From assembly GCF_003122325.1 (NCBI RefSeq), contig NZ_QFBC01000010.1:1-64000 (forward strand): a DNA stretch of 64,000 bases, in the 5' to 3' direction. Source of the stretch: Rhizobium album. GTDB lineage: Bacteria > Pseudomonadota > Alphaproteobacteria > Rhizobiales > Rhizobiaceae. Both the position numbers and the translations under genes were made by a program. Shown piece by piece: positions 1 through 6,417 of this stretch. Every line of letters starts with the position of its first letter. The first letter of the stretch is position 1. The notes beneath the pieces were generated by a model that did no database searches, was not told the DNA's origin, and saw only the letters and a list, made by a program, of their open reading frames with translations.

Positions 1-1
1 T

Positions 2-97
2 CCCGCCAGAATGGGACGCCTGCGCGCCTACGGCAATGCCATCGTCCCGCAAGTCGCGGCCGAAGTGATCGGCGCCTACATGGAGATCGCAGCATGA
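2..97 (+). CDS. DNA (cytosine-5-)methyltransferase, C-terminal end (partial)
   Basis: Only the last 31 codons are in the window. They read through a segment containing GRLRAYGNAIVPQVAAE, which matches motif X at the C-terminus of C5-cytosine methyltransferases, where the helix closes the SAM-binding domain. The enzyme would methylate cytosine in DNA, in phage usually as protection against host restriction. The stop codon overlaps the start of the next gene (ATGA), so the two are probably translated together. The target sequence cannot be inferred from this fragment. The family call is good because of the YGNAIVP signature. Confidence 0.75.
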   Translation, partial: PARMGRLRAYGNAIVPQVAAEVIGAYMEIAA

Positions 98-600
98 CGA
101 ACCCTGAAACCCCCTCCCCCAAGAACAAAATGGCGCCGTCGCCCGTGGCCTATATCGCGCCGGACATATTCGAGCGCTTGAAGGCTGGCCAAGGCGGCAT
201 GTTTCCAATCTCAAACAGCAAGTTCAGAGACGAGGAACTAACGGTCCCCCTATACGCCGAAGCGCCACAAACGAATTTGGCGGGAGGGCAGGCCCTCGCG
301 GATATTGCTGCCGAACGCCGCCGGCAGATCGAAACGGAGGGCTGGAGTACCGCCCGCGACGACGAGCATACAAATGGCGAATTGGCTCTTGCAGCCGGCA
401 GCTACTGCGAAAGTGCGGCGCGATCGAAGCTATTGGCCCGCAAGCCCGGCGGCGCGTTCGCAGTTCCGAAGCTCTGGCCCCTGTCATGGAGCCGGGATTG
501 GTGGAAGCCGAAATCGCCCCGACAAGATTTGGTCCGGGCCGGTGCCCTTATCATCGCCGAGATCGAGCGCCTTGACCGCGCTGCCGCCAGGGGGAACTGA
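94..600 (+). CDS. Phage-associated protein of unknown function
   Basis: This 168-residue protein has a C-terminal half (about residues 68-160) typical of a small family common in alphaproteobacterial prophages. The family is recognised by an ERRRQIETEGW...DDEHTNGELALAA core, tryptophan-rich middle and a closing LVRAGALIIAEIERLDR helix. The function of that family is not known to me. The N-terminal 15 residues carry the TPSPKNK motif that recurs in six other places in this element. Its ATG overlaps the stop of the cytosine methyltransferase, indicating translational coupling. Confidence 0.75.
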   Translation: MTNPETPSPKNKMAPSPVAYIAPDIFERLKAGQGGMFPISNSKFRDEELTVPLYAEAPQTNLAGGQALADIAAERRRQIETEGWSTARDDEHTNGELALAAGSYCESAARSKLLARKPGGAFAVPKLWPLSWSRDWWKPKSPRQDLVRAGALIIAEIERLDRAAARGN

Positions 601-610
601 AATGTCTAAA

Positions 611-886
611 TTAGACTGCGCCAGCCCGAACCCATTGGAGCTCGCCATCCACCTCCGGTGCAATTTGAAGATCCGGAATAGCTTTGGGGTACGTCAACAT
701 TCTATCCATCGTCTCTTCTACCGTCGGCTTAAACTCCTCGTCATCGCGAACGTCATCCGTGATGCCATGTCGCTCCGAAAGCAAGGCCCGCAGCCTTCGA
801 AAGCCGAACGGCACGCCAATGGGCATGTCCCCTACAAGCGCGTGGACTGCGTCCGTGACGCTGGCCTTCTCCAACTCAGAAAGCAT
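611..886 (-). CDS. Small protein of unknown function on the opposite strand
   Basis: A 91-residue acidic protein with no recognised domain, the only minus-strand gene of the element. It is called because a strong Shine-Dalgarno sequence (AGGGGAG) sits seven bases before the ATG and the composition is protein-like, with charged helices and no long low-complexity run. The plus strand is also open here (from an ATG at 602), but that reading is rich in unlikely Arg/Ser/Cys. Its inverted orientation among co-directional phage genes suggests an independently expressed extra gene. Function unknown. Confidence 0.5.
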   Translation of the reverse strand: MLSELEKASVTDAVHALVGDMPIGVPFGFRRLRALLSERHGITDDVRDDEEFKPTVEETMDRMLTYPKAIPDLQIAPEVDGELQWVRAGAV

Positions 887-950
887 TGTCTCGCTCCCCT
901 ACAATCCGAGACCGCACGCTACAACCAAGGCTTGATGAAGGGAAGCTCCG

Positions 951-1310
951 ATGCGTAGCTTGGATCATTACCCGAACTGCAAACGCGAGTTTTATGCCAA
1001 CGCGCAGGACGCCTACTGCGAAGAGTGCTGGCGCGCATGGTGCAAAAATGACGGGACGTTCGAACAGCGCACCAAGCCATGGGCCTCGTTGATCGAAACA
1101 CCCTCCCCCAAGAACAATGTGGTTGGATGGGTCACCGTCCGCGTCGAGGACACTGGCGACGGTCTCATCATCAACGCAGATGACGCGAAAGAGTGGCGTC
1201 TTGCGTCTGACCAGCATTACGAGGGCAGCTTTTTGCCGGATGGCAGGTATCGGATCGCCATCCCGTGCCGCGCCGCCTGCGCCACCACGGAGGGCTCCGA
1301 CCGTGGATGA
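951..1310 (+). CDS. Phage-associated protein with a Cys-rich N-terminus
   Basis: This 119-residue protein has an N-terminal Cys-rich stretch (a CEEC pair near residues 23-26, with other Cys nearby) that could bind zinc. The TPSPKNN motif follows around residues 51-57, then a beta-rich part ending PDGRYRIAIPCRA. The start is taken at 951, preceded by a GAAGGGAAG ribosome site. Its end overlaps the next gene's GTG start. I do not recognise the family. The motif in the middle makes it look like a join of two small modules. Confidence 0.6.
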   Translation: MRSLDHYPNCKREFYANAQDAYCEECWRAWCKNDGTFEQRTKPWASLIETPSPKNNVVGWVTVRVEDTGDGLIINADDAKEWRLASDQHYEGSFLPDGRYRIAIPCRAACATTEGSDRG

Positions 1311-1974
1311 TAGCAAATTCCCCACCTGGATAATCCATCAGCGCTACGGAATGGTGCCAGATAAAAAAGGCCCGTTCCACGAGACAAAGCGGATCGAGGA
1401 ATTCCTTCGCGACCTATACAGCCTTTATCCCGGCAGCATTTGCATCGTGGTCAACGACCTCGGCGCGGCCGGATGGCACCCACAACATGGTTTCGAGTGG
1501 CTGGATGAGTTTGGCGACAAGCGCCGCCGGCATCCTCGAAAAGATGCGCATGACGGTCAGACTATGCCGATTGGATACCTGCGTGGTAGCGACCGCGAGA
1601 TGCTCAAGACGGGGTCAGTGTGCCTCTACAAGCGCCGGGACTGGCAAGCCCATATTCCTGTCTACGCCTATCCCTCCCCTGAGACGAACGAGACCTTTAC
1701 CCGCGAGCAGATGCTTGCCGAGGTTGAACGCCGGGTTGATCGCGCCCTGGCTGCGCAACAGGCTCTGTCGTCGCCCAAGGTTAATATGGATGCAAAGGTC
1801 AGCCTACAGCAGCAGTTGGCCGAAATGCGAGCTGAGCGCGACTTACTGCAAGACATCCTTGATAGCCGTCCCGCGATCAATGCTGCTCTTCCTGAAAGCT
1901 ACAATCGGTGGTCGCAAGCCATCTATTCCGGCGATGTGGTTCGCGCCGCCGGGGGAGGCTCTGATGCTCCGTAA
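1303..1974 (+). CDS. Phage-associated protein with C-terminal coiled coil
   Basis: The reading frame is open from 1117, but the first 62 codons read as a shadow of the previous gene. I place the start at GTG 1303, eight to nine bases after a GGAGGG ribosome site, giving 223 residues. The N-terminal half is a small globular region (WIIHQRYGMVPDK onward). The C-terminal part contains SSPKVN, another copy of the recurrent motif, followed by a helix with heptad-like leucines (SLQQQLAEMRAERDLLQDIL). No family recognised. Confidence 0.6.
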   Translation: MDDSKFPTWIIHQRYGMVPDKKGPFHETKRIEEFLRDLYSLYPGSICIVVNDLGAAGWHPQHGFEWLDEFGDKRRRHPRKDAHDGQTMPIGYLRGSDREMLKTGSVCLYKRRDWQAHIPVYAYPSPETNETFTREQMLAEVERRVDRALAAQQALSSPKVNMDAKVSLQQQLAEMRAERDLLQDILDSRPAINAALPESYNRWSQAIYSGDVVRAAGGGSDAP

Positions 1975-2089
1975 GCTCCTCTGCTGGATTGGCTGGCACG
2001 ACTTCCAGCCGACCCGTTTCCTCACCTGCAATCCCAGAGACCGGGGCCGGGTCTGCCGGCACTGCTACACGGAGGACTCCGATGTCTGA
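1964..2089 (+). CDS. 41-residue Trp/Cys-rich phage small protein
   Basis: A 41-codon gene with start ATG 1964, directly after a GGGGGAGG ribosome site and overlapping the previous gene by 11 bases. The product begins MLRKLLCWIGWHDF and ends with a C-R-H-C pair, a layout seen in many tiny phage proteins with possible zinc-ribbon character (Cys at about 7, 24, 32 and 35). It ends inside the start region of the next gene. Function unknown. Confidence 0.6.
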   Translation: MLRKLLCWIGWHDFQPTRFLTCNPRDRGRVCRHCYTEDSDV

Positions 2090-2351
2090 CCACGAGCACC
2101 TTTATAGTTTCTGCCGTGTCAGCTTTTGGAAAGACTGGACGGCGTGCAAGGGCGGCGATGACTGGACCCGGTGCACGGTCAGTCCTCTCGGCATGTACAC
2201 CTACGGCGAGCAGTCTTTCGAAAACAATGACCAAGGCATAGCAGCCCGCGACGCACTCATCGCCTTTCTTGACAAGGCCTACGAGATTGGTCGGTCCCAC
2301 GCGAAACGCGAGATCCGCGAAGTCCTCGGCGTGAAGGAGCCCCGCTCATGA
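2082..2351 (+). CDS. Small phage protein of unknown function
   Basis: This 89-residue protein starts at ATG 2082, five to six bases after a GGAGGA ribosome site and eight bases before the stop of the previous gene. It contains a Cys/Trp-containing N-terminal half (CRVSFWKDWTACKGGDDW) and a helical C-terminus with GRSHAKREIREVLG. It ends with an ATGA overlap to the next gene. No domain recognised. The tight packing in the phage operon supports expression. Confidence 0.6.
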   Translation: MSDHEHLYSFCRVSFWKDWTACKGGDDWTRCTVSPLGMYTYGEQSFENNDQGIAARDALIAFLDKAYEIGRSHAKREIREVLGVKEPRS

Positions 2352-2776
2352 CCGACACACCCAAGGACAATGTAACCGGTAGCCCATTCGTGGCAAGCCT
2401 TTCGGCCGACCAGTTACGCATCCACGAGGCGCTTTGCGACAGCCAGTTTATTGCCGGGGCAAAGGCCGGGTGGAATGCCGGGTGCATTGCTGATCCAGAA
2501 GCGGCAACAGCAGCGTTCGGTGCGCTCATCAAATCACGCGACGGCCATCTCGAAGGATTTGCCGACGCGAAAGCCGCCTTGGCTGCGCAGCAGGCACCCA
2601 AGGATAATTTGCGGGTGGACGTTGACCGCCTTGCCGCTCGTATTGTGACTGCCGCTTGCGAACTGGACGGCCCTGCCGATCCGGCCAGCGACGACACGAT
2701 CTCTATCACCATGAAAGATTTAGAAGCCGTCGTGCATCGCCACGTCACGGCAGCTGTGGAGGGCGACAAGCTATGA
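2348..2776 (+). CDS. Phage-associated protein carrying two SPK-type motifs
   Basis: This 142-residue protein opens with MTDTPKDNV and carries a second copy of the same motif (APKDNLRV) near residue 84. The two copies divide it into two domains of roughly 75 and 55 residues. The first contains FIAGAKAGWNAG, a Gly/Ala/Trp pattern seen in small prophage proteins. The second is helical. It overlaps both neighbours by ATGA junctions. The duplicated motif inside one gene supports the idea that the motif marks module borders. Function unknown. Confidence 0.65.
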   Translation: MTDTPKDNVTGSPFVASLSADQLRIHEALCDSQFIAGAKAGWNAGCIADPEAATAAFGALIKSRDGHLEGFADAKAALAAQQAPKDNLRVDVDRLAARIVTAACELDGPADPASDDTISITMKDLEAVVHRHVTAAVEGDKL

Positions 2777-3495
2777 AGCTCATGCTCGGCGACTGCCTGC
2801 AGCGCATGCACGAGATCGAAGACGCCAGCGTCGATATGATCCTCTGCGATCTGCCATATGAGACGACCCGGAACGAATGGGATTTCGAAGTCCATCTTCC
2901 TGCGTTATGGGCACACTATCGACGCATCTGCAAAGGCGCGATCGTCCTGACGGCGCAGACGCCATTCGACAAGACCCTTGGCGCGTCGAACCTGCGCATG
3001 CTGCGTTATGAGTGGATTTGGGAAAAAGGTAACGCGACGGGGCACCTAAACGCGAAGAAGATGCCGATGAAAGCCCATGAGAATGTGCTGGTCTTCTATG
3101 ATCGCTTGCCGACCTACAACCCGCAGAAGACATTCGGGCACCCGCGAAAGACAGCCCTGCGTGAGGTCAGCGCCAAACAGAGCACCAACTATGGGCGCGT
3201 TGAAACCAAGACGCCCTACGACTCAACAGAGCGATATCCGCGCAGCGTCCTGTTCTTCTCGAGCGACAAGCAACGGTCGAAACTGCACCCGACTCAGAAG
3301 CCGGTCGCGCTCATGGAATATTTCATCAGCACCTACACCAATCCCGGCGATGTGGTTCTCGATAACTGCATGGGCAGCGGCACAACGGGCGTTGCTTGCA
3401 AGCTGACCGGGCGCCAGTTCATCGGCATCGAAAAGGACGCCGAATTTTTCGCAATCGCAGAACAGCGACTTATGGCCGAAAGCGAGGCAGCATGA
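2773..3495 (+). CDS. DNA N4-cytosine/N6-adenine methyltransferase
   Basis: A 240-residue amino-methyltransferase that would transfer a methyl group from SAM to an exocyclic amine in DNA. Motif IV is DLPY at residues 26-29 (DPPY in most relatives) and the SAM-binding motif DNCMGSGTTG lies at about 197-206. The catalytic motif therefore precedes the SAM site, which is the beta-class order. HPTQKPVALMEYF just before the SAM motif is typical of the family. The start at 2773 is chosen because the ATG overlaps the upstream stop. In a prophage it probably protects phage DNA from restriction. The target base cannot be decided by eye. Confidence 0.88.
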   Translation: MKLMLGDCLQRMHEIEDASVDMILCDLPYETTRNEWDFEVHLPALWAHYRRICKGAIVLTAQTPFDKTLGASNLRMLRYEWIWEKGNATGHLNAKKMPMKAHENVLVFYDRLPTYNPQKTFGHPRKTALREVSAKQSTNYGRVETKTPYDSTERYPRSVLFFSSDKQRSKLHPTQKPVALMEYFISTYTNPGDVVLDNCMGSGTTGVACKLTGRQFIGIEKDAEFFAIAEQRLMAESEAA

Positions 3496-3674
3496 CCGAC
3501 ACACCCAAGAACATTGTGGCGCGCGGCACTCCTGAATACGCTGCAGCCGAAGCTGCCTTCACCGAATACTTCGTCCGGAACTATCCCGGCCCCGACACCA
3601 TCATCTTCGATCCACGTTGGCACGCACCGAAGCTTTTCGCGGCGGCTGTCCAGGCCGTGCGGGAGGCGCGATGA
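3492..3674 (+). CDS. 60-residue phage small protein with N-terminal TPKN motif
   Basis: The gene starts at ATG 3492, overlapping the methyltransferase stop. It begins MTDTPKNIV, nearly identical in its first six codons to the gene at 2348. The remainder is a single small domain with an aromatic-rich helix (YAAAEAAFTEYFVRNYPG). It ends with an overlap of the next start. The N-terminal motif shared with unrelated neighbours is its most notable feature. Function unknown. Confidence 0.6.
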   Translation: MTDTPKNIVARGTPEYAAAEAAFTEYFVRNYPGPDTIIFDPRWHAPKLFAAAVQAVREAR

Positions 3675-4354
3675 CGATCCACCATCATGGCCTGCCGCTG
3701 ACGCCCGAAGTGATGTTGCTCGACCTCGCCGGCCGACATGTCTGCATCTCGTTTGCCACCAAGAGGGATCCGCAGGTCGAAATGTCCTTGCGGATGATGC
3801 AGTCGATCATGTTCGATTGTGGCGAGTTCACGCACTTCCAGCAAGGTGGGACCGTCGATCGGGAGGCCTATTACAATTGGCTTCGGCCGATGCTGCGCCC
3901 TCCACATTGGGCAGTAGTGCCGGATCGGATCGACGGCACGGTCGAAGAGCAGCGTGCGCTTGTCGCGACTTGGCCATTCCCAAAGTCCCGAGGAGCGCCC
4001 GTCTGGCACTTGGGGCTGCCGATCTCCTATCTGATCGAGCTTGCGCGCCAATGGACGCGCATCTGCTTCGGTTCCAGCCAGCAATATTGGAAAGTCGGCT
4101 CGCCGGTCTGGAAAGGGCGCATGCACGAAGCCTTCGCGGCTCTCGAAGATGCGGGCCTCCAGCCGGAAATCCACGGCCTCCGGATGATGAATGAGGCAGG
4201 CAACTGGCCGTTCGCCTCGGTCGATAGCGTCAACATCGCCAGAAATTACAAGGACCGCGAGGATATGCCCGGCCGGATGGCCGACCGGCTGGACCGCGTC
4301 AACCCGCCAAAAATCTTTGTCCCTCAGAGGAGGCTCATCACCGATGTCGCTTAA
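3671..4354 (+). CDS. TGT/DpdA-like protein, candidate 7-deazaguanine DNA base-exchange enzyme
   Basis: This 227-residue phage protein has the layout of a shortened tRNA-guanine transglycosylase barrel. IMFDCGEF near residue 53 resembles the TGT active-site stretch (DSGGF, where Asp is catalytic). VPDRIDGT follows, then PVWHLGLPISYL, a Gly-rich strand RICFGSS, and an IHGLRMM...FASVDS end. Members of the DpdA branch swap guanine in DNA for a 7-deazaguanine such as preQ0. That assignment is inference from pattern, not a search. Support comes from the next gene, a queuosine-precursor transporter, overlapping by 11 bases. The zinc-binding Cys cluster of tRNA TGTs is absent, as in DpdA proteins. 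It could instead be an uncharacterised phage family with a similar fold. Confidence 0.5.
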   Translation: MTIHHHGLPLTPEVMLLDLAGRHVCISFATKRDPQVEMSLRMMQSIMFDCGEFTHFQQGGTVDREAYYNWLRPMLRPPHWAVVPDRIDGTVEEQRALVATWPFPKSRGAPVWHLGLPISYLIELARQWTRICFGSSQQYWKVGSPVWKGRMHEAFAALEDAGLQPEIHGLRMMNEAGNWPFASVDSVNIARNYKDREDMPGRMADRLDRVNPPKIFVPQRRLITDVA

Positions 4355-4877
4355 AACCATCGTTTTGACGGCCGCCTTTGCGGCAACCATCCCGCTCGCA
4401 AATTGGATGATCGGCAATGTCGGCACGGTCTGCATTCCTGACGGCCCGTGCCTGTTGCCGGTCGGCTTTGGACTCACCGCCCCAAGCGGCGTGCTTGTCG
4501 TCGGCGCATCGCTGGTCTTGCGTGACATGGTGCACGAGGCCGGCGGCGCCAAGGCAGCGCTAATCGCCATCGGTATCGGCGGTGTCCTTTCCGCGCTGTT
4601 CGCCGCGCCGGCATTGCTGGTCGCCTCTGTCCTGGCATTCGTGCTGGCCGAACTGGCAGACCTCGCTGTCTATGCCCCGCTGCGCGAGCGCCGCCTGTGG
4701 CTCGCCGTGCTCCTCAGTGGTATGGCCGGCGCCGTTGTCGATAGCGCGGTCTTCCTGTGGCTGGCCTTCGGCTCGCTTGACTATCTGGCCGGTCAGACCC
4801 TCGGGAAACTCTGGATGACGCTCGCCGCGCTGCCGATCCTCTGGCTCGCCAGCAGCCGTCGGAGGATCGCAGCATGA
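4344..4877 (+). CDS. VUT/YhhQ-type queuosine-precursor transporter
   Basis: This 177-residue integral membrane protein has about five or six hydrophobic segments. Signatures seen are APSGVLVVGASLVLRDMVHE, an ELADLAVYAPLRER loop and AGAVVDSAVFLWLAFGS, the pattern of the VUT (YhhQ) family. These inner-membrane proteins import preQ0/preQ1, precursors of queuosine and of deazaguanine DNA bases. The start at 4344 follows an AGAGGAGG ribosome site and lies within the end of the TGT-like gene, so the two are coupled. A phage-borne copy makes sense as a supplier of base to the upstream enzyme. It is slightly shorter than cellular YhhQ (about 220 residues). Confidence 0.75.
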   Translation: MSLKTIVLTAAFAATIPLANWMIGNVGTVCIPDGPCLLPVGFGLTAPSGVLVVGASLVLRDMVHEAGGAKAALIAIGIGGVLSALFAAPALLVASVLAFVLAELADLAVYAPLRERRLWLAVLLSGMAGAVVDSAVFLWLAFGSLDYLAGQTLGKLWMTLAALPILWLASSRRRIAA

Positions 4878-4939
4878 CCACCTCTCCCAAGGATAAACTG
4901 CTGGTGTCTGCCGATACGGCGGAGAGGAGCGGAGGATGA
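4874..4939 (+). CDS. 21-residue micro-ORF consisting largely of the SPK motif
   Basis: The ATG overlaps the transporter stop (ATGA) and its own TGA overlaps the next ATG, so it is wedged between two coupled genes. The predicted peptide starts MTTSPKDKL and ends after 21 residues. The end of the ORF includes GGAGGA, the ribosome site for the following gene. It may act mainly as a translational bridge, or be the leftover N-terminus of a lost gene. It is too short for composition-based support. Confidence 0.35.
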   Translation: MTTSPKDKLLVSADTAERSGG

Positions 4940-5142
4940 GCCGAGCTAGGGTATACACGAAGTCCGAAATCTCCGACGCCGCCGCCGCTGCCGCCTTGCA
5001 TGGCGTCAGGGTCATCATGCATCCTAGCGGCGAGATCGAATTCTCCCCCAAAAGGTTTCCGGCTCGCGAAGGACAAGACGACAGCGCCGAAGCTGCGCTC
5101 GATAGGTGGGTAAATGGAAGGCAAGCTGGTCGGCGTGCATAA
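4936..5142 (+). CDS. Small pre-integrase phage protein
   Basis: This 68-residue protein starts just after a GAGCGGAGG ribosome site and overlaps the integrase start by 29 bases. Its pattern (KSEISDAAAAAALHGVRVIMHPSGEIEF) matches small proteins often found just upstream of integrases in rhizobial phages, in which a helix is followed by a short beta hairpin. It is sometimes assumed to be a recombination-directionality or DNA-binding helper, but nothing in the sequence proves that. Confidence 0.65.
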   Translation: MSRARVYTKSEISDAAAAAALHGVRVIMHPSGEIEFSPKRFPAREGQDDSAEAALDRWVNGRQAGRRA

Positions 5143-6151
5143 GTTGAGGGTGAAATTGGCCGATGGCAGTTTCGCAACATACTACTACGCATGGCGGGGC
5201 AAAGGCGCTCCCCGCATCATGTCGAAGCCCGGCACCAAGGCCTTCACTCAAGAATTCCTCCGACTTACGAAGGACCGGCAGAAAGACGTCCGAGAAGGCA
5301 CGATCGGTTCGCTGATCGAGGATTTTCGGAAAACGGCTGGCTACGGGAAATTAGCCCCATCCACCAGGCGCGACTACGAACGGCAGTTGGCAACGATACG
5401 GTTGGAATATGAGACATTTCCTATTCGTGCGGTCGAAGCCCGCGGGAGCCGCATGATCTTCATGAACTGGCGCGATGGGATGAAGGAGGCGCCGCGGTCT
5501 GCTGACATGCATCTTGCTCTCCTTGCACGCGTTTTTGCCTGGGCCAAGAGCAATGAGATAATCCTGCGCAATCCGCTCGAACGGATCGAACGCCTTCACG
5601 AGGGCAGCAGACGCGACATTATTTGGTCGAACGAGCAACTGCGTAAGGTTCTGGACCATGCAGCGCCCCACATTCGAGACGTCGCCAAAATCGCGCTTTG
5701 GACTATGCAGCGCCAAACCGACATCTTGTCCATGCCTACCCTTGCCTTCGACGGAGAGAGAGTTTCCATCAGACAAGCAAAGACCGGCGCCAAGGTTCGC
5801 GTGGTAGCAGCCATGGATATTTTGCCTATCCTTCGAAAAGCTAAGGAGGCGCAAAGGCAGAGAATCCTCGTGAACTCTTTCGGGCAGAACTGGACGCCAA
5901 GTGGGTTCAGGGCCTCATGGAGGAAGGAAATGGCCCGGCTCGGAATCAAGGGCGTCACATTTCACGATCTGCGGGGGACTGCCATTACCTACGCCTACGC
6001 TCACCTAGACAGGTCGCACGACGAAAAAATCAAGCTGATCGCCGAGATATCAGGTCACTCCCAGGATGAGGCTGAAGTGATAATACGGAAGCACTATTTG
6101 GCAGGCCAGGAGGTGATAGACGCGATTGGTCGAGGAACAAAAAGAAAATGA
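5114..6151 (+). CDS. Phage-type tyrosine integrase
   Basis: This 345-residue site-specific recombinase would integrate and excise the element. The catalytic set is visible: Arg200 in QRQTDIL, His284-x-x-Arg287 in HDLRG, His315 in SGHS and the nucleophile Tyr328 in RKHYLAG. An N-terminal arm-binding part and a core-binding helical region (about 60-160, SLIEDFRKTAGY onward) precede the catalytic domain. It starts inside the previous small gene and stops 61 bp before the 3' end of tRNA-Lys, its likely target. All catalytic residues are present, so it may be functional. Confidence 0.92.
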   Translation: MEGKLVGVHKLRVKLADGSFATYYYAWRGKGAPRIMSKPGTKAFTQEFLRLTKDRQKDVREGTIGSLIEDFRKTAGYGKLAPSTRRDYERQLATIRLEYETFPIRAVEARGSRMIFMNWRDGMKEAPRSADMHLALLARVFAWAKSNEIILRNPLERIERLHEGSRRDIIWSNEQLRKVLDHAAPHIRDVAKIALWTMQRQTDILSMPTLAFDGERVSIRQAKTGAKVRVVAAMDILPILRKAKEAQRQRILVNSFGQNWTPSGFRASWRKEMARLGIKGVTFHDLRGTAITYAYAHLDRSHDEKIKLIAEISGHSQDEAEVIIRKHYLAGQEVIDAIGRGTKRK

Positions 6152-6190
6152 AATTGTAAAATATCGTGGAACTGTAAAATGAGGCATCAG

Positions 6191-6208
6191 AACCGCCTCT
6201 AAGCGGTT
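6191..6208. other. Short inverted repeat between integrase and tRNA-Lys
   Basis: AACCGC and GCGGTT form a six-base stem with a six-base loop (CTCTAA). It lies 39 bases after the integrase stop and 4 bases beyond the tRNA-Lys 3' end. It could be a weak terminator for either transcript or part of the recombination site. No T-run follows on either strand. Confidence 0.3.
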
Positions 6209-6212
6209 GATT

Positions 6213-6288
<76 letters not shown>

Positions 6289-6417
6289 GTTCCGTCCGCC
6301 CCGTTCCGGTGGCGTGATGCGGCGTATAAACAGGATCCGGAGGATTGTCCAGCGGCCTGGCAAAAAAACTTCACAAATTGCCGAAAAAAATTGGGATGAC
6401 CAAAAAGGCGAGGAAAA

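Follow-up and report, generated by a model that had tools for sequence, protein, structure and literature searches.

The window analysed here is a 64,000-nucleotide stretch of Rhizobium album (NCBI RefSeq assembly GCF_003122325.1, contig NZ_QFBC01000010.1, positions 1 to 64,000), which carries at its left the integrase end of a prophage with two overlapping genes, one for a short DpdA-like protein (P0001) and one for a VUT transporter (P0002). It was found that these two kinds of gene are coupled in phages, the transporter gene lying beside a DpdA gene at 78 of 80 viral loci, and the pair is probably a two-gene prophage cassette for 7-deazaguanine modification of DNA fed by salvage. DpdA-only phages have already been published, as has the occurrence of YhhQ both in phages and in dpd islands; the VUT–DpdA coupling is the new observation here.

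Coupling of VUT and DpdA genes in phages

To describe the neighbourhoods of the two genes, three sets of loci were used, namely the 80 closest of the 587 viral contigs confirmed for the P0001 family, 80 of 145 viral VUT loci and, as a control, 80 of the 130 contigs fetched with the neighbouring methyltransferase. Open reading frames (ORFs) were taken from their earliest start, and gap lengths are therefore lower bounds. A VUT ORF was present in the flanks of 64 of the 80 DpdA loci, on the same strand in all 64, downstream of DpdA in 54 and upstream in 10. At three of the 16 loci without VUT, the sequence stops less than 0.5 kb past the downstream side of the DpdA gene. At the level of protein clusters, 33 of 45 DpdA clusters at 90% identity and 11 of 18 at 70% were VUT-positive. 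The control loci included VUT in 0/80 and DpdA in 3/80.

From the side of the transporter, the DpdA gene at the 78 loci always shared the strand of VUT and was never more than 384 bp from it, and at the two loci without one (L207 and L272) the VUT gene lies at a contig edge. When the VUTs were clustered at 90%, a DpdA partner was found for 48 of 50. Three DpdA subfamilies were represented among the 78 partners: 66 were of the phrog_887 type, 10 of the StevieRay type (E 1e-24 or better) and two of the phiLM21 type. In a midpoint-rooted VUT tree with many long branches, the transporters of loci L225, L241 and L292 group together with support (96/91), and because their partners are of the phiLM21, StevieRay and phrog_887 types, respectively, the transporter appears to stay while the enzyme differs. 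The proteins phiLM21 p025 (L025) and StevieRay gp54 (L029) stand for two further TGT-like subfamilies adjoining VUT; the latter belongs to phrog_15826, given as 'unknown function' in PHROGs and described as DpdA-like in the phage record.

Among the VUT-bearing loci opened from the phage collection, 10 of 15 had DpdA within 1 kb, and in the PEAT2 record both genes are annotated side by side. Mycobacteriophage records with a full-length VUT had an overlapping StevieRay-type DpdA in 12 of 12 cases and those with a truncated VUT in 0 of 14 (duplicate records of one phage included), a pattern that one shared deletion could explain.

The portions of PMC9837993 and PMC11130926 covered do not name a phage VUT–DpdA pair, and no published description of the pair as a conserved phage unit was found in the literature searched, which lacked one main review, one later paper on phages and the 7ui4 structure paper. 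YhhQ has been reported in HCTV-1 and HCTV-16 (PMC8651126), and phage-encoded YhhQ was described by Hutinet et al. as having no correlation with any group of phages (PMC6884629).

The short DpdA-like enzyme

In a profile search of PHROGs, P0001 matched phrog_887 ('queuine tRNA-ribosyltransferase') with an E value of 5.9e-34, and homologs were present in 104 phage records. An earlier note on this DNA, made without database searches, had recognized the gene by the patterns IMFDCGEF, VPDRIDGT and RICFGSS. These are present, and in an alignment of 63 sequences they hold invariant or near-invariant columns (D49, G51, P84, D85, I87, G134 and S135). Positions invariant in that alignment were H4, H6, G7, D49, G51, D85, H113, G134, S135, H168, D185 and S186, of which we take D49, D85 and D185 to be the catalytic aspartates of the TGT/DpdA fold.

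A profile of 19 family members matched a profile of 14 bacterial DpdAs with an hhalign E value of 3.9e-5 (probability 70.5), pairing FDCGEF with GDCGAF and ASVDS with SFDTTS, so that D49 and D185 align with the DCG and SFDTTS of bacterial DpdA. For the bacterial DpdA profile, the match to the PDB entry 7ui4 ('DNA-guanine transglycosylase') had an E value of 4.8e-125, and those to tRNA TGTs were no stronger than 3e-4. Members of phrog_887 also include gp050 of RHEph04 (E 1.4e-80), which has DSGAFS, HGFG and SVDSSTW at the places of the P0001 motifs in the 19-sequence alignment, and the single DpdA of phage MED16 (E 3e-70), a relative of P0001 in the same family with 31–35% identity. StevieRay-type proteins of three loci cross-matched the phrog_887-type profile at about 2e-4. 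Owing to the phrog_887 motifs, the match to the bacterial DpdA profile, the link to 7ui4 and the absence of a Pfam TGT match, P0001 is predicted to be a distant protein of the TGT superfamily on its DpdA side. Sequence, genomic context and relatives in the literature all support the kinship with TGT and DpdA proposed in the earlier note. Searches of P0001 against Pfam, NCBIfam and PADLOC gave no family above noise. Two weak resemblances were taken as noise, namely EncB (the single PDB match of family alignment A4, E 1) and BLF1, a Pfam near-match (E 0.17 for P0001; 3 of 63 family members, best 0.048).

The transporter and the arrangement of the pair

P0002 passed the Pfam Vut_1 (PF02592) cut-off with 53 against 27.2 bits (E 6.7e-14) and matched phrog_4899 at 1.3e-39, which bears out its earlier identification as a VUT/YhhQ transporter. 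It came just below the cut-off of TIGR00697, the NCBIfam equivalog for queuosine-precursor transporters (47.0 vs 50.95 bits), and scored 28.7 bits against a cut-off of 252 with the E. coli-type YhhQ model, which has 221 positions compared with the 177 residues of P0002. Like the preQ0/preQ1 transporters of the YhhQ/QPTR family (COG1738), P0002 is of the Vut_1 type; in E. coli, YhhQ takes part in the transport of preQ0 (PMC5372724). A broad VUT alignment had no conserved stretch usable as a scan query.

The two ORFs and their 11-base overlap are as first described, and the overlap suggests translational coupling of enzyme and transporter. Both genes are under purifying selection, with dN well below dS: 0.18–0.43 against 1.65–2.8 for P0001 (four homologs) and 0.10–0.31 against 1.2–2.8 for P0002 (three homologs), dS being near saturation. 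There was no match to a preQ1 riboswitch in positions 1–6400 of the window, and scans for promoters and terminators gave counts close to shuffled expectation.

Dpd islands and precursor synthesis in the host

A Dpd island is present in the same genome (C6:34881-54113; L033, L034), with DpdA (PADLOC E 1e-168), two DpdB, DpdC, DpdJ (PADLOC E 0), a DndB-like protein, QueC, QueD, a QueE-like radical-SAM protein and a VUT which follows QueC. It is the one place in the genome with clear QueC and QueD genes (C6:47.9-49.0 kb); a second QueC match, on contig C12, was partial and 0.1 bit above the cut-off. QueF was not found in the genome. QueA and TGT are adjacent on contig C23, and their presence together with the QueF result suggests that tRNA queuosine depends on salvage.

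Fourteen further Dpd islands, two of them from one genome, were fetched by the resemblance of their DpdA to that of the R. album island. VUT was present in 10 of these, in one case on the other strand and away from QueC; the published frequency of YhhQ in dpd islands is about 9% (PMC11888242). Of the six Dpd VUTs in the VUT tree, five cluster together (99/93) within the large group of phage VUTs, and that of a beta island is placed elsewhere. The lone host VUT on contig C60 falls outside the phage VUT group and away from P0002, on a very long branch whose place is unsure.

Genomes that carry this phage DpdA have Dpd more often than background samples do. A Dpd-type DpdA was identified in 8 of 49 such genomes, drawn from 50 of the 80 loci (alpha 4/17, others 4/32, as sorted by record titles), compared with 6/393 in the family, 0/386 in the class and 2/369 in the beta/gamma class. 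The backgrounds leave out the own or centre genome and include near-full-length matches only, weak partial matches to bacterial DpdA (E 6.9e-7 to 9.4e-4; 4 in the class and 29 in the beta/gamma class) having been dropped. The Fisher p values of 3.7e-4, 2e-6 and 4.5e-4, respectively, leave genome size, mobile-element load and ancestry uncontrolled. Within the family sample, the phage DpdA occurs in 4 of 394 genomes, and two of the four, the own genome and G045, have Dpd; G045 is apparently the same as G394 (L286), with identical match places.

The prophage element

The features of the element in the window are collected in Table 1. The window begins at base 1 of contig C2, in a genome of 6.86 Mb and 62 contigs, and the prophage, which is integrated in tRNA-Lys, has the DpdA–VUT pair at its integrase end. 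The other attachment core (attL) is on contig C23, where no tRNA gene was called around it, and the 50 kb from there to the contig end (C23:418744-468715; L026–L028) contain phage genes, including those for ERF, YqaJ, toprim primase, an SU10-type portal, terminase and muramidase. The two parts most likely belong to a single prophage, at least about 56 kb long and divided between C2 and C23, with the join inferred.

Table 1. Predicted features of the prophage end in the window.
Feature	Position	Strand	Basis
31-residue C-terminal tail at contig edge	2..97	+	no Pfam match
Phage-type N6/N4 DNA methyltransferase, 239 residues	2776..3495	+	PF01555 (N6_N4_Mtase) E 4.5e-28; phrog_67 E 4.5e-75
Small ORF, 60 residues, directly upstream of the DpdA gene	3492..3674	+	no family match
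Short DpdA/TGT-like protein P0001, 227 residues	3671..4354	+	phrog_887 family; conserved D49, D85, G134, H168, D185
AGAGGAGG, ribosome-binding-site-like, ahead of the transporter ATG	4326..4333	+	sequence
Overlap of the DpdA and VUT ORFs, 11 bases	4344..4354	+	ORF coordinates
Vut_1/QPTR (YhhQ-type) transporter P0002, 177 residues, about 5–6 hydrophobic segments	4344..4877	+	PF02592, phrog_4899, hydropathy
Tyrosine integrase	5114..6151	+	PF00589 E 1.3e-6; phrog_1 E 1.6e-31
attR core, 48 bp	6213..6260	.	identical to C23:418744-418791 (attL) of the same genome
tRNA-Lys (CTT), integration target	6213..6288	-	tRNA call; Rfam tRNA

Of the two ordinary DNA methyltransferases which the earlier note placed beside the pair, one was confirmed. 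The other is a contig-end fragment, possibly, if the motif is judged by eye, the tail of a C5 methyltransferase, and the suggested three layers of protection were not borne out. The absence of QueC, QueD and QueE nearby was confirmed and extends to the ORFs of both prophage parts, where there was likewise no second DpdA or VUT, no DpdC and no match to bacterial-type DpdA; these searches left aside FolE, DpdB and restriction genes, and the contig gap is unseen.

Interpretation and alternative explanations

In a salvage-fed cassette of this kind, the transporter would bring in preQ0, or a closely related 7-deazaguanine base, from the surroundings and so add to the host's own preQ0. The short DpdA, as a compact TGT-type transglycosylase, would swap guanine in phage DNA for the imported base, and the product, dPreQ0 or dADG, would hinder nucleases that read guanine. 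We infer preQ0 as substrate, the final base and the protection, as indeed all of the chemistry, and DNA as the target is suggested by analogy with relatives.

Such relatives are known. Phages with DpdA only are a group of 76 members, the largest among those suspected of 7-deazaguanine modification, although their status is hard to predict (Hutinet et al. 2019, PMC6884629). The singleton-DpdA phages MED16, SEN1 and SW9 and the DpdA-only group 3 of Hutinet et al. have, as here, a TGT-like enzyme without synthesis genes, and in MED16 DNA dADG amounts to about 0.13% of G (PMC8306585). The MED16 enzyme is longer than P0001 (261 vs 227 residues), and no VUT is annotated in the 10.6 kb of MED16 that was opened. 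The Kleczkowskavirus RHEph04 resembles the prophage in having VUT and a phrog_887 DpdA, but differs in its annotated FolE, QueD, QueC and QueE and in the distance of about 10 kb between VUT and DpdA. Bacterial Dpd islands of the Salmonella Montevideo type share with the prophage a DpdA-family enzyme and often VUT; they differ in DpdC, bacterial-type DpdA and QueC/D/E, none of which was found in the prophage.

An importer would be useful to the phage because some hosts are without preQ0 synthesis, and in R. album the only clear QueC and QueD would go with the Dpd island if it were lost. The earlier note had proposed a minimal version based on salvage. The idea of salvage is supported; what had been overlooked is QueC, QueD and the QueE-like protein in the host island, which would make import one of two supplies.

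Several observations weigh against a salvage-fed cassette for DNA modification. The host can make preQ0 itself, and its Dpd island may supply preQ0 too. VUT was near this DpdA at only 16 of 80 bacterial-genome loci, with none in the flanks of the other 64, and of the 60 DpdA phage records listed (104 in all) only 15 recur among the VUT matches. Phage records with the phiLM21-type DpdA number 399, of which 390 are from Mycobacterium, where just 26 records have VUT; in RHph_TM3_3_3 this DpdA type is present, and the 6.8 kb opened show no VUT. Conversely, there are VUT genes for which no DpdA was detected: in mEp515 (L039) in the whole record, in MagusPhagus (L041) and Erebus in the parts opened, and in MT837598 in 8.5 kb. 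The last was counted as a miss; it is filed as a phage, and its other ORFs look bacterial to us. As to the enzyme, there was no relevant PDB sequence match for P0001 or for the family alignments A4 and A6, hhalign of the family directly against one host tRNA TGT was insignificant, and Pfam TGT (PF01702) was matched by none of the 63 members at E 0.1. The Pfam DpdA family PF23859, which does match the phiLM21-type protein, had no match to P0001 and a weak one (E 0.047) to one of the 63. Published modification in DpdA-only phages is slight or nil: dADG was about 0.02% in Salmonella phage 7-11 and absent from Orion (PMC6884629), and that of MED16 made no visible difference to the restriction enzymes used (PMC8306585). 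Phages with 7-deazaguanine are restricted by the Vibrio system GrwAB, whose escapers have an altered DpdA (PMC12137116); the mark can therefore also come at a cost.

From the side of the enzyme, then, the coupling fades with distance and import is optional. A QueD-like gene was near DpdA at 8 of 80 genome loci (L290, L305, L306, L322, L329, L332, L333 and L352) and 2 of 80 viral loci, never together with VUT. It is possible that QueD is an alternative precursor supply, but this is only a lead, since 2 of 80 control loci have QueD too.

It is unlikely that the pair acts on RNA, with the short enzyme modifying tRNA or another RNA and the transporter raising the queuosine precursor, so tuning translation during infection. 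The name of phrog_887 points in this direction, import could serve host queuosine given QueA, TGT and the missing QueF match, and boosting of queuosine was suggested by Hutinet et al. for phages with pathway genes and no DpdA (PMC6884629). On the other hand, the nearest family of solved structure reached through profiles is a DNA-guanine transglycosylase, and the Pfam TGT match is lacking. tRNA TGTs carry a C-terminal zinc site, for which, judged by length, the 42 residues after D185 in P0001 would leave little room. Also, the dpdA of phage 9g failed to complement E. coli tgt (PMC6884629). Whether P0001 might instead be a decayed or inactive TGT-like protein is raised by its DCGEF in place of the usual DNGAF and by the very low published modification levels of relatives; the low dN relative to dS, the retention of D49, D85 and D185, and the occurrence of DCG in the relatives L342 and L300 and in bacterial DpdA make this highly improbable.

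Another role of VUT in phages, for example at the membrane during exclusion, with its closeness to DpdA being passive linkage, is very doubtful. The VUT of mEp515 without a detected DpdA, VUT beside methyltransferases and the distance between the genes in RHEph04 would fit it, but it sits poorly with linkage in 78 of 80 cases across three DpdA subfamilies and both gene orders, and with VUT being found in Dpd islands as well. The VUT genes that adjoin DNA methyltransferases and have no detected DpdA are those of mEp515 and, for the part opened, MagusPhagus.

A special case of the salvage-fed cassette, and compatible with it, is that the pair serves mainly against Dpd, the same base making virions appear as self to hosts in which the Dpd island attacks DNA without 7-deazaguanine. 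This has a low probability in our view. It would fit the Dpd island of the own genome, whose host would need import without the island's QueC and QueD, and the enrichment of Dpd described above. The counts, however, are small and, as noted, uncontrolled; Dpd hosts that simply supply preQ0 would give the same pattern, and Dpd was found in just one of the three other family-sample genomes with phage DpdA.

Implications

A wider and rather speculative possibility is that VUT and DpdA form a portable self-mark cassette common to phages and Dpd islands. Virions would then be marked in advance even in hosts that do not make preQ0 and be read as self by Dpd cells, the transporter would be the stable core around which three DpdA subfamilies were swapped, and the VUT of many islands would have come from the phage pool.

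If phage VUTs nearly always partner a DpdA, whichever its subfamily, VUT would be a marker for salvage-type phages. If the coupling holds true, it becomes directly testable whether the transporter raises the amount of the base in phage DNA, and since this genome holds a Dpd island as well as the prophage cassette, the evasion of Dpd restriction can be tested too.

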